Below, piece by piece: positions 32,358 through 35,082 of a DNA stretch of 64,000 bases; position 1 is the first letter of the stretch; each line of letters starts with the position of its first letter. The notes beneath the pieces were generated by a model. It was not told the DNA's origin and did no database searches. It saw only the letters and a list, made by a program, of their open reading frames with translations. The position numbers and the translations under genes were made by a program. The DNA is from Pirellulales bacterium (lineage in GTDB: Bacteria > Planctomycetota > Planctomycetia > Pirellulales > JALHPA01): the NCBI GenBank assembly GCA_033762255.1, contig JANRLT010000021.1, positions 248,001-312,000 of the forward strand, read 5' to 3'.

Positions 32358-32659
32358 AGCAGCGTCAAAATATTTAGTTCATTTGGTAACACAAATGGTA
32401 CGTAACCGTTGCCATTATTGCTACTTGGCATTTTATCCGGATCGGATGTTAACTTTATACCTCTCTGAGCCTAAATAAATAAGGTGCGTCAAGTATCCAC
32501 TTGACGCACCTTATCACGGGGGGGAGAAATTCTGCTCGCTTGAATATTTAATTATCTAACAATTTGCCCAGCAAAGTTTTTTGCTTTTCCAGCATGCTCT
32601 GTCCACTACTCACTTTCCACCATCCACTCTCCATTACTCCAAACTCCACTCCTCCTACC
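32358..32659. other. Intergenic region with a terminator hairpin
   Basis: About 300 bases between two minus-strand genes hold the hairpin at 32479-32514 and a low-complexity stretch (about 32595-32660, CCACTACTCACTTTCC-like) resembling in reverse the repeats near 30910-30950. No gene is seen. Confidence 0.5.
32479..32514 (-). terminator. Likely rho-independent terminator after the sigma operon
   Basis: A 15-bp perfect stem (AAGGTGCGTCAAG pairing with CTTGACGCACCTT plus two flanking pairs) surrounds a 6-base loop. On the minus strand it is followed by the T-rich TTATTTATTT. It lies about 145 bases after the stop of the anti-sigma-like gene. Confidence 0.7.
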
Positions 32660-33889
32660 TCACGGTCCCTGTCCGCTTCCCACCAACACCGCGTCGTTGT
32701 TGTTGGTACCGGCTAGTGGCTCGCCCAGATGGTTCAGGTAAAAGTGATCCCCTTCGGGCGATTCGCGGCAATCTAGCAAATACAAAATGTGACCATCTTC
32801 AAACAGCACATTCCGGCCGTTCCCGCCGTGATGCCCTAGGTATTGCAACTTGCCGTTTAGAATCGTGCAGCGGGGAAGGTCCGACATCAGGGCAAAATGC
32901 TTTCGCGACTGGTTTTTGACCGGGTAATAACGACCATTATCACGATAGCCCAGGGTAAAAGCGTAGCTCCCCCCCATGAACTCTTGCAGCTTGCGCAAGT
33001 CGGCGGGGGAGGCCCGCAAGAGGTCCTGGGTGCGTGGAATCCGAAATTCCGACTGGCGGGCCAAGTCGGACTCGGGGCACAGAACTAAGCGGGGATGGGT
33101 CAAATAACCCGCATCCTGAAGTTGGGTGGCATACACCCCAGCCGCCGCCAAGGGACCACGCTCGCTCGCCACAGGGAAAATCCCTTGATGATGCGCGGCC
33201 AGGCTACTTAGCCCATAATGGACCTCGCGCATGTTGTTTTGACAATTGACTAACTGGGCATGCTCGCGGGATTGTAAAATCGATGGCAAGACCAACGCAC
33301 CCAAAAACAGCATGGCACCGACAGCCACGCCGACATCCAGCGGCCGCCAGTTACGGGTGGAAAAATCGGGGACATGCCCGGCGACATCCACCGCGGTGGC
33401 GGAATTTTGAGAGTTGGTCTGAAATACTTGATCGGTGATGCCAGCCGTCAAGGTGTTTAGGTCGGTGCCAATTGTCCTGGAAGTCGGCGGGATAGGAGCG
33501 GCGCCACCCAGAGTCGGATGATAAGCCACGCCCAGGGGTGTCAATGTTTGACCGGTCAGATCCAACGCGGCGGAATCATCCGCCAGGGGAGAAATTTGAT
33601 TTGGCGAATGGTCGATCCCGGCGGGAGTGACTTCCACCGCGGCGGAAGCTGGGGAAGGACGCGACTCTTGCGTCCAAACTTTTTGACAGGTAGCCGCCGC
33701 TAATTGGGCCGGGGGATCAAAAGGTTCTTCATCGGCGGAAAGAAGCTGCAAACCGCGCTGCAAGCATAAACATTCGTAACGAAGCAGGGTGTCGCGGCGC
33801 AATTGGTCGGCGACTTGCTCGGTTTCGTCAGGCTCGAGTGCCTGCAATAAATATCCGAGCAGCTGGACGCGGGGGTTAGTTTCAGTCAT
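32660..33889 (-). CDS. Anti-sigma-like membrane protein fused to a DUF1559-like module
   Basis: The 409-residue protein has three parts. The N-terminus (residues 1-50, VQLLGYLLQALEPDETEQVADQL) has the helical look of anti-sigma domains. A Pro/Ala/Thr-rich linker leads to a single membrane helix (VGVAVGAMLFLGALVLP, about residues 185-205). The rest, starting ILQSREHAQLVNCQNNMREVHYGLS, matches DUF1559/pseudopilin-type planctomycete proteins, with an end motif HGGNGRNVLFEDG close to the usual H-x9-DG. It starts inside the end of the ECF sigma gene (8-base overlap), as expected for a sigma/anti-sigma pair. The DUF1559-like part should lie outside the membrane and might sense something there. Confidence 0.75.
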   Translation of the reverse strand: MTETNPRVQLLGYLLQALEPDETEQVADQLRRDTLLRYECLCLQRGLQLLSADEEPFDPPAQLAAATCQKVWTQESRPSPASAAVEVTPAGIDHSPNQISPLADDSAALDLTGQTLTPLGVAYHPTLGGAAPIPPTSRTIGTDLNTLTAGITDQVFQTNSQNSATAVDVAGHVPDFSTRNWRPLDVGVAVGAMLFLGALVLPSILQSREHAQLVNCQNNMREVHYGLSSLAAHHQGIFPVASERGPLAAAGVYATQLQDAGYLTHPRLVLCPESDLARQSEFRIPRTQDLLRASPADLRKLQEFMGGSYAFTLGYRDNGRYYPVKNQSRKHFALMSDLPRCTILNGKLQYLGHHGGNGRNVLFEDGHILYLLDCRESPEGDHFYLNHLGEPLAGTNNNDAVLVGSGQGP

Positions 33890-34535
33890 GTTCCGCGGTA
33901 TGGGTTTGTTTCCAGGATTGATGCAGCTTGAGGATGGCCGCGTGCAGGCGGCTTTTGACCGTCCCCACGGGAATTTCCATCACATCAGCCGCTTCACGAT
34001 ACTTTAAACCCTGATAATACACCAAGATCAAGGCAGTACGGAGTCCCTCCGGCAGTTCCTGAACAGCTTGGCGGATCCAGTCGCGCCGTTCCAGCATTTC
34101 CAGGTTGGTGTCGGCTTCTGGCTCGGTGCTGGTGAGCAATTCGAGCAAGGTGCCGATCTCTTCGCCGTGGTCATGCTCGGTCCGACGATCCAGACTGACC
34201 ATCCGGTGCCGTTTGTTCCGGCGCTGGGCGTCAATCGCCTGGTTTGTGGCAATCGTATACAGCCAGGGCCGAAACTTGCGTTCCTCGTCGAATTGGTCGC
34301 GCTTCAAGTGAACCTGTAAAAAGGTCGCCTGAAACGCGTCTTCCGCCAAAGTCGCATCCCCCAAATACCGGCGCAAATAACTATACAATTCGCGCTCGTA
34401 CCGCGAGACGAGTTCCTCAAAAGCGCGGCGGGTATCGGTGGTCCGATACTCGCGCAGCAATTCTTCGTCGGATCGTTCCGCCCAGGGGATAAAACTTATC
34501 GAGTTGGTTCGAGGACGTTCGATGGTGACACTCAT
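33882..34535 (-). CDS. ECF (RpoE-type) RNA polymerase sigma factor
   Basis: The product of 217 residues has sigma regions 2 and 4. Region 2 appears as ELLREYRTTDTRRAFEELVSRYERELYSYLRRYLGDATLAEDAFQ followed by KFRPWLYTIATNQAID, and region 4 as ELPEGLRTALILVYYQGLKYREAADVMEIPVGTVKSRLHAAI. This is a typical planctomycete ECF sigma. ATG 34535 (MSVTIERP) is preferred because the frame upstream to 34733 is not conserved-looking. Its stop overlaps the start of the anti-sigma-like gene. Targets cannot be told. Confidence 0.92.
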   Translation of the reverse strand: MSVTIERPRTNSISFIPWAERSDEELLREYRTTDTRRAFEELVSRYERELYSYLRRYLGDATLAEDAFQATFLQVHLKRDQFDEERKFRPWLYTIATNQAIDAQRRNKRHRMVSLDRRTEHDHGEEIGTLLELLTSTEPEADTNLEMLERRDWIRQAVQELPEGLRTALILVYYQGLKYREAADVMEIPVGTVKSRLHAAILKLHQSWKQTHTAEHD

Positions 34536-35082
34536 GGTTACGCAGTGGTTTTGGCCGTGGTTCGCGAGTTTGTTGCCGCCGGTGACGGAATCTTTTTGCA
34601 AATTGGCCAAAAAATCGGAATTCATTGAAAATTTAACACACCGGGCCACCCCGGGTTGGCAAAAAACCGGATCACGGTCGGGTTTTGCCAACTTTGCGGG
34701 GACGCCTCTCGTATAACGCAAACAATGTGCCAAGGTGCTCTAAACGATTTTTACGGCCTTATGCACAGGCATAAACATAAACTTAAATTATTACTGTAAA
34801 TCAACTTGCGCTAAATCCAGGAATTGCCATAAATAGTCTGTGAAACTTGTCACATTGTAGTTTTGGCATGTTTTTTTGCGAAATTGTACAATCTGGCAGG
34901 AAGCAAAGAGTTGAATTTTAATACAGCTTAATTTTTTGCGCATTTTTCGTGAATTTTTTCACGGATGAATCCCCACAGACTTGCCATTCAATCACAAAAT
35001 TGCATGCTGGCACTTGGTGGTCGTCGCATCTCTGCCCCGGAAGCCAACTGATTGAACCAGGATAACTAAAGGTGTTTTTGAA
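34536..35082. other. Divergent intergenic region, sigma gene versus mtnA
   Basis: About 550 bases, AT-rich at 34750-34960. It should contain the promoter of the sigma operon and that of mtnA. No RNA gene or repeated element was noticed. Confidence 0.4.

Follow-up and report, generated by a model that had tools for sequence, protein, structure and literature searches.

Class I anti-sigma factors that are bound to the membrane and lack a zinc motif, MucA among them, combine an N-terminal helical domain with one membrane span and are encoded beside the gene of an ECF sigma factor. RskA and RseA are of the same kind, and class I anti-sigma factors contact sigma4 with helix 1 and sigma2 with helix 4, according to the excerpts of Wu et al. 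(2020; PMC7406223) on which we draw. Two further groups of proteins bear on the locus described in this article. The first is the DUF1559 family (PF07596, SBP_bac_10; H-X9-DG model TIGR04294), for which the portions of text consulted give 74 genes in R. baltica (PMC2754498) and 68 in P. limnophila (PMC10632474). The second comprises type IV pilins and pseudopilins such as PilA4, TcpA, PilE and GspG, in which the N-terminal helix is long, begins with an aromatic residue, has an acid at position +5 and leads into a beta-sheet head. The PilS-PilR system of Pseudomonas aeruginosa would provide a functional precedent for pilin sensing in the membrane (PMC6058289, in excerpt), but the precedent is an analogy only; PilS is a histidine kinase, unlike the pilin-like protein considered here.

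The locus lies in a stretch of 64,000 nucleotides from a Pirellulales bacterium (the window), where an ECF sigma factor gene is followed by the gene of a 409-residue protein, referred to below as the fusion (Table 1). The fusion resembles the zinc-less membrane-bound anti-sigma factors in its N-terminal helical domain, its one span and its adjoining ECF gene, and differs from them in its outer part, which is a pilin-type module. This module shares with DUF1559 proteins a homologous alpha-1 region and an H-x10-DG motif, whereas it has lost the prepilin cleavage residue in most members, carries Asp instead of Glu at position 5, follows an anti-sigma domain and a long linker, and has a diverged head. 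It also has the long helix, the aromatic start, the acid at +5 and the sheet of type IV pilins and pseudopilins, but it is unprocessed as far as the sequence tells and is joined to a cytoplasmic domain. In the titles, openings of abstracts and excerpts consulted of the literature on DUF1559, planctomycete ECF factors and pilin-like anti-sigma factors, we found no anti-sigma factor with a pilin-type outer part; the group may already bear a number in a classification of planctomycete ECF factors.

Table 1. The gene pair and its parts; positions refer to the window, residues to the 409-residue protein.
Feature	Positions	Strand	Basis
Promoter-like site of ECF type, GAAC-N17-CGTA (GAAC starts at 34563, CGTA ends at 34539), ending 3 bases before the sigma ATG	34539..34563	minus	dyad search in the region before sigma
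ECF sigma factor gene, 217 aa, ATG 34535 to stop 33882	33882..34535	minus	ORF, Pfam, NCBIfam
Overlap of the two genes, 8 bases	33882..33889	minus	sigma ORF end 33882, next ATG 33889
Anti-sigma/pilin fusion gene, 409 aa	32660..33889	minus	ORF, NCBIfam, AlphaFold2, relatives
Residues 1-77, four-helix anti-sigma domain without the H-x3-C-x2-C zinc motif	33659..33889	minus	AlphaFold2, structure comparison, NF052375
Residues 78-180, linker, mostly of low confidence, length varying among species	33350..33658	minus	pLDDT, alignment gaps
Residues 183-233, single helix of 51 residues, equivalent of pilin alpha-1	33191..33343	minus	AlphaFold2, DUF1559 and pilin matches
Codon of Asp185, pilin position 5	33335..33337	minus	D in 67 of 67 aligned members; register from DUF1559 profile comparison and five pilin chains
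Residues 234-409, head with pilin-type sheet	32663..33190	minus	AlphaFold2, structure comparison

Three features that the initial annotation had read from the sequence, namely the overlap of the two genes, a single membrane helix and an H-x10-DG motif near the end of the second protein, are borne out by the open reading frames, by the single span within the long helix of the AlphaFold2 model, and by the residues H354-x10-D365-G366. The sigma protein is classed by both Pfam (Sigma70_r2, 2.2e-19; r4_2, 3e-16) and NCBIfam as an ordinary ECF factor. The open reading frame tool placed its start at TTG 34733, which is upstream of the promoter-like site, and ATG 34535 is therefore the likely start. 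Downstream of the gene pair, a perfect inverted repeat with 16-base arms and a 4-base loop (32479-32514) was noticed by eye and is possibly a bidirectional terminator.

The pairing of the two genes is conserved. The sigma gene was found directly or at most 180 nt upstream of the fusion in the window and in all 29 relatives read (29 of these 30 loci by script, L033 through a reading of its sigma gene), and consequently the arrangement is not due to chance. A larger named collection yielded 78 fusion loci, of which 67 were usable, and the sigma gene is upstream in 63 of the 67 (62 by script, in addition to L073); in 57 it lies no farther than 100 nt away (overlapping in 13, close in 43, plus L073), and in 6 it is farther away by choice of start. 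The 11 loci left out of the protein alignment (L047, L055, L056, L077, L081, L083, L103, L108, L112, L113 and L114) were cut by a contig end, had an unresolved frame or start, contained X residues or were too distant; L070 was omitted as a duplicate of L069, and L026 was excluded from alignment A1 because its sequence is cut. When the flanks of the loci were clustered, the fusion formed a family in 66 loci and the sigma factor in 55. A conserved third gene was rejected, the largest other flank family being present in 20 loci at scattered places, mostly 2-6 kb upstream.

Within the genome of the window one full-length match to the fusion is present. Together with 56 relatives, nearly all of the same order, a match to the fusion (E<=1e-5) exists in 50 of 57 genomes and 41 of 43 genera. 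In a survey of 148 genomes of the class, selected for a completeness of 90 or more, the fusion was counted at a profile E of 6e-20 or better, a cut-off set after seeing the gap to the other 43 genomes, whose best profile E values range from 9e-14 to 1e-17. By this count the fusion is present in 105 genomes and the sigma orthologue in 109, with both in 104, sigma alone in 5, the fusion alone in 1 and neither in 38; the Fisher value of this co-occurrence ignores kinship and is not to be read as a probability. The two genes are adjacent on the same strand, sigma first, in 102 of the 104 genomes that have both. Among the five genomes with sigma alone, two (G042 and G062) have by eye a diverged fusion-like protein downstream (L317 and L318 are the stretches in which such a protein follows sigma in a genome counted as lacking the fusion), one (G150) has its sigma gene at a contig end, and two (G003 and G157) have other genes downstream; the sole genome with the fusion alone (G182) has it at a contig start. 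One family of the class (f22, 38 genomes) has no fusion and has sigma in a single genome, and its best profile matches, at 1e-14 to 1e-17, are what would be expected of DUF1559 proteins.

The region upstream of the sigma gene carries a conserved dyad. A sigma start was located by pattern in 49 of 108 sources, and 40 upstream regions remained after removal of near-duplicates. The dyad GAAC/CGTA, with its halves 15-19 nt apart, occurs in 32 of these 40, compared to at most 8 for any dyad in five shuffled sets. Before removal of duplicates, 40 of the 49 loci have the site, with spacings of 16 (13 loci), 17 (26) and 18 (1), and the exact match is absent in the remaining 9. Because the site is conserved before the sigma gene, we infer that the sigma factor uses GAAC-N16/17-CGTA upstream of its own gene. 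In 25 of 40 loci the first in-frame start of sigma is an ATG 3-8 nt after CGTA, and five more have such an ATG as a later start, so that a conserved leaderless sigma mRNA is predicted. Ten further stretches from the class, picked mainly as exceptions, include six with the site near the sigma start (L317, L318, L320, L322, L325 and L326).

Additional information comes from genomes in which the two genes are apart. The fusion has no adjoining sigma gene in four records of Rhodopirellula type, namely R. sallentina (L074), R. solitaria (L093), R. rubra (L094) and Aporhodopirellula aestuarii (L099), at least three of which are close relatives, so that they represent about two independent cases at most. 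The sigma orthologue is encoded elsewhere in all four genomes (E 6e-90 to 3e-89, against no better than 5.7e-33 for the next paralogue), and in 4 of 4 the separated fusion gene has its own GAAC-N17-CGTA 100-148 nt upstream; these four loci together contain only six such sites (52 kb, both strands). Over the stretch examined, the relocated sigma genes have no GAAC/CGTA site, and an exact site is likewise lacking for K23_9 (L306), whose sigma gene adjoins its partner. Before the relocated sigma gene in L308, L310 and L311, the sequence TTGACC-N17-CAGAAT is conserved by eye and would be a promoter of the housekeeping type; if so, the sigma factor would be made constitutively there and would drive its own inhibitor. 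In the same three stretches a MotA-like gene was seen by eye within about 0.7 kb after sigma, with a FlbD-like gene nearby in L308 and L310 and a MotB-like gene in L311.

The genome was also scanned for a regulon with the pattern GAACY-N15/16-CGTAD, the reversed pattern serving as control. Genome-wide the pattern is not enriched, with 64 matches against 134 for the control in this genome and 103 against 162 in G029. Examination covered 60 of the 64 matches here (three of four copies of a repeat and the site of the window itself were left out) and 100 of the 103 in G029. By eye, the candidate downstream genes of this genome have no common theme, and comparison of downstream frames between the two genomes gave two matches and no convincing shared target beyond the operon. 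One of the matches pairs the sigma gene L198 of this genome with the sigma of G029, and the other (L164/L240) covers 34 residues at 7e-4. L198, a second sigma-like gene, has a GAACY-N15-CGTAD match at a distance of about 240 nt or more before its frame and is possibly a second sigma factor with the same type of site, or part of a cascade. A large regulon at this strictness was dropped in view of the lack of enrichment and of shared targets, which still allows some regulon, and the regulon may consist of the operon alone. DUF1559 genes were rejected as targets of the sigma factor, as none of 34 starts found by pattern at 30 of the 36 DUF1559 places in the genome, some of them counted twice, has the site within 350 nt.

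The structure of the fusion was predicted with AlphaFold2 from the 409-residue window protein and 66 relatives. Helices are predicted at residues 6-14, 20-32, 34-51 and 63-76, and the block means of pLDDT over residues 1-80 are 82, 96, 97, 97, 89, 67, 88 and 77. With a second-look structural aligner, RslA matches residues 3-58 of the model (Z 6.7, rmsd 2.5, 56 residues) and MucA matches the anti-sigma domain (Z 6.2, rmsd 2.7). RsiW and RskA also score (Z 6.4 and 5.1) but with rmsd of 8.9 and 11.0, and ChrR aligns to part of residues 1-77, one of its rows having an rmsd in the range of 9-12. A search of the full model against the PDB with Foldseek gave no match at E<=0.001, with RsiW and RskA leading at E about 1, and a profile search of the PDB with the family profile lists RskA at E 0.045. 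The anti-sigma NCBIfam model NF052375 matches the window protein at residues 10-83 (E 1.3e-7) with 31.9 bits against a curated cut-off of 100, but the model is a full-length equivalog of 217 positions and its cut-off tests a subfamily, not the class of anti-sigma factors. The same model matches 29 of 29 members at E<=0.1 and 66 of 67 at E<=0.01. The initial annotation had attributed an anti-sigma look to residues 1-60 and had proposed their fold as a check; the predicted structure does resemble anti-sigma domains, and the character of the domain stands together with the NF052375 match, while its extent has to be revised to nearer residues 1-77. These residues would bind the sigma factor in the manner of class I anti-sigma factors, although no clear pattern of helix 1 with sigma4 or helix 4 with sigma2 emerges from a covariation analysis of 77 pairs of anti-sigma domain and sigma.

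The domain is followed by what is presumably a flexible linker (pLDDT below 50 at residues 82-84 and 90-164) and by the long helix, the first part of which would span the membrane and place the head outside. In the full-length model the head is a mixed structure of high confidence up to residue 409. Modelled alone, the module has a mean pLDDT of 94.3 and a pTM of 0.88 and consists of a long alpha-1 followed by a head with an antiparallel sheet. The best 8 rows of the second-look aligner for the module alone are all type IV pilins (Z 3.4-5.8; next row 2.5), including PilA4 (5.8 over 119 residues) and TcpA (5.3 over 136 residues), and parts of residues 178-399 of the full-length model align to type IV pilins with Z up to 5.6. 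Foldseek found no match to the module alone in the PDB at E<=0.001, and the best 50 rows contain no pilin for either the module or the full model; for both, pilins surface only in the second-look aligner. The family profile against the PDB gives PilE1 (E 0.001), geopilin (0.0024) and 9w4c (0.0065), which is listed simply as 'fusion protein'. With Z values of middling size, the argument for the domain make-up draws on predicted structure and sequence together. W181 falls on pilin residue 1 at the start of the alignment in five chains (8uhf, 9iuf, 2hi2, 8tj2 and 3sok); the top-scoring pilin (PilA4, 6xxd) aligns 3 residues out of this register, and in the full-length model the first aligned residue varies by up to 3 among pilin chains.

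Prepilin peptidase needs a small residue, normally Gly, at position -1 of its substrate. The DUF1559 proteins read from this genome conform to the prepilin pattern [GA]-F-x3-E. Their N-termini were located with an anchor that leaves positions -1, 1 and 5 free; the reading covered 30 of the 36 places, of which 6 yielded no N-terminus, and a few N-termini from overlapping loci are counted twice. Those obtained have Gly or Ala at -1, Phe at 1 and Glu at 5 in 27 of 27 cases each. In addition, solved pilins are matched by the profile of the DUF1559 proteins of this genome, at E values down to 2.3e-12. The prepilin starts and the profile match argue that DUF1559 proteins are pilin-like and not solute-binding; a sensor role for them is not established by the present pair. 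The window protein has N-W-x3-D at the corresponding site in place of the prepilin start, and among 67 fusion members position -1 is Gly in 6, Ala in 2 (8 together) and Ser in 10, whereas an aromatic residue (Trp or Phe) stands at position 1 in 53, Asp occupies position 5 in all 67, and Pro occupies position 22 in 66. Since the cleavage residue is missing, its place being taken by Asn in the window and by various residues in the relatives, the module most likely remains anchored in the membrane rather than being incorporated into a pilus.

The outer region had been annotated as DUF1559-like. Comparison of its profile with that of 29 DUF1559 proteins from the genome of the window supports the relation with a probability of 98.5% (E 2.5e-15) over only 59 columns with one gap, in a register that equates W181, D185 and P202 with pilin residues 1, 5 and 22 and C216 with DUF1559 cysteine 36. 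PF07596 matches 20 of 29 members at E<=0.1 and 37 of 67 at E<=0.01, and TIGR04294 matches 17 of 67; the window protein itself has no PF07596 match at E<=1. The head is diverged, and the fusion is a divergent branch, mostly without the prepilin start. Residues invariant in the 67 members are C271, D337, H354, N360, G394 and D399 in the head and C216 in the helix. The further suggestion of the initial annotation, that the fusion hints at a sensor role for DUF1559 proteins generally, is not supported, given the pilin-type N-termini of DUF1559 proteins, the divergence of the fusion and the lack of the site before DUF1559 genes; for the fusion itself, the position of the outer module suggests a sensor.

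The computations show how the protein is built, that the two genes are paired, that a promoter-like site is conserved and that the residue needed for processing has been lost, and on this basis we regard it as probable that the locus encodes an autoregulated sigma/anti-sigma pair with an unprocessed pilin module as sensor, in which binding of sigma, topology, use of the site, release and sensing by the head would operate as follows. Residues 1-77, in the cytoplasm, would keep the ECF sigma factor bound at the inner membrane, while the protein would cross this membrane once, through the hydrophobic start of alpha-1, and display the pilin-type head outside. A signal at the head or at the alpha-1 helix would free the sigma factor by proteolysis or change of shape, and the freed factor would transcribe its own operon from GAAC-N16/17-CGTA, thereby producing more anti-sigma factor and closing a feedback loop. 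That the signal is some envelope condition read by the head is an evenly balanced proposition; that it is the pool or assembly state of pilin-family proteins, acting through alpha-1, is a tentative one, and so is a signal of some other kind.

In the likeliest of the alternatives, to which we assign the same tentative standing, the module would sense within the membrane how much pilin-family protein (DUF1559 proteins, for instance) is present or in what state of assembly it is. The free N-terminus of a processed pilin would dock on the acid at position 5 of the anti-sigma factor, and docking or its loss would free the sigma factor. The retention of this acid in every aligned member, while position -1 varies, fits such a role, as do the 36 DUF1559 matches in the same genome with Glu at position 5 in all N-termini read. 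Precedents, in the excerpts available, are PilS, which responds to levels of PilA in the inner membrane of P. aeruginosa (PMC6058289), and a truncated PilA that, in the same species, turns on AlgU while the anti-sigma factor MucA is lost (PMC3684759). Against docking, Asp185 could simply be a helix cap next to the tryptophan at the membrane interface, a role not separable from a pilin-type one, and the divergent relative L317 seems, by a count made by hand on the sequence, to have Lys at position 5; the 38 genomes of f22 have DUF1559-like matches without the fusion, and no DUF1559 start read has the site. A wider form of this reading, which strikes us as unlikely, is that a prepilin became a signalling protein when its leader was exchanged for an anti-sigma domain and processing was lost, so that the position-5 acid docks DUF1559 pilins in the membrane and an ECF sigma factor reports the state of the pilin family to the cell in the greater part of a bacterial class.

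That the outer module is a solute-binding receptor signalling to sigma is improbable. The Pfam short name SBP_bac_10 and the excerpts of the R. baltica study, which treats DUF1559 as a solute-binding family with a compatible-solute idea and records an increase for nine DUF1559 genes within an hour of the onset of cold and salt shock (PMC2754498), speak for this possibility together with the invariant D337, H354, N360 and D399, but the predicted fold is that of a pilin, and it is solved pilins that the DUF1559 profile matches. We consider it very improbable that the anti-sigma domain and linker stand in place of a prepilin leader and are cut off their anchor by prepilin peptidase as the switch itself: the cytoplasmic part does end where the leader would, and the aromatic residue at +1 and Asp at +5 are widely kept, but a small residue at -1 is found in a minority of members (the Gly, Ala and Ser counts above). 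Finally, that the protein shares the sigma operon by chance and is no anti-sigma factor would accord with the score under the NF052375 cut-off and the lack of a covariation signal, but is highly improbable in view of the NF052375 matches among members, the structure matches, the co-occurrence, and the site that precedes the fusion gene even after separation from sigma.

The preferred reading, an autoregulated pair with a pilin-type sensor, matters for planctomycete biology in several respects. DUF1559 is among the largest unexplained protein families of planctomycetes, and here a relative of it is coupled to a transcription factor. Provided that the pairing is correct, the activity of the sigma factor at a defined site would be an assay for whatever the pilin-type module detects. 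The pair is common to many planctomycetes (104 of the 148 class genomes) and offers a testable route to the role of DUF1559.
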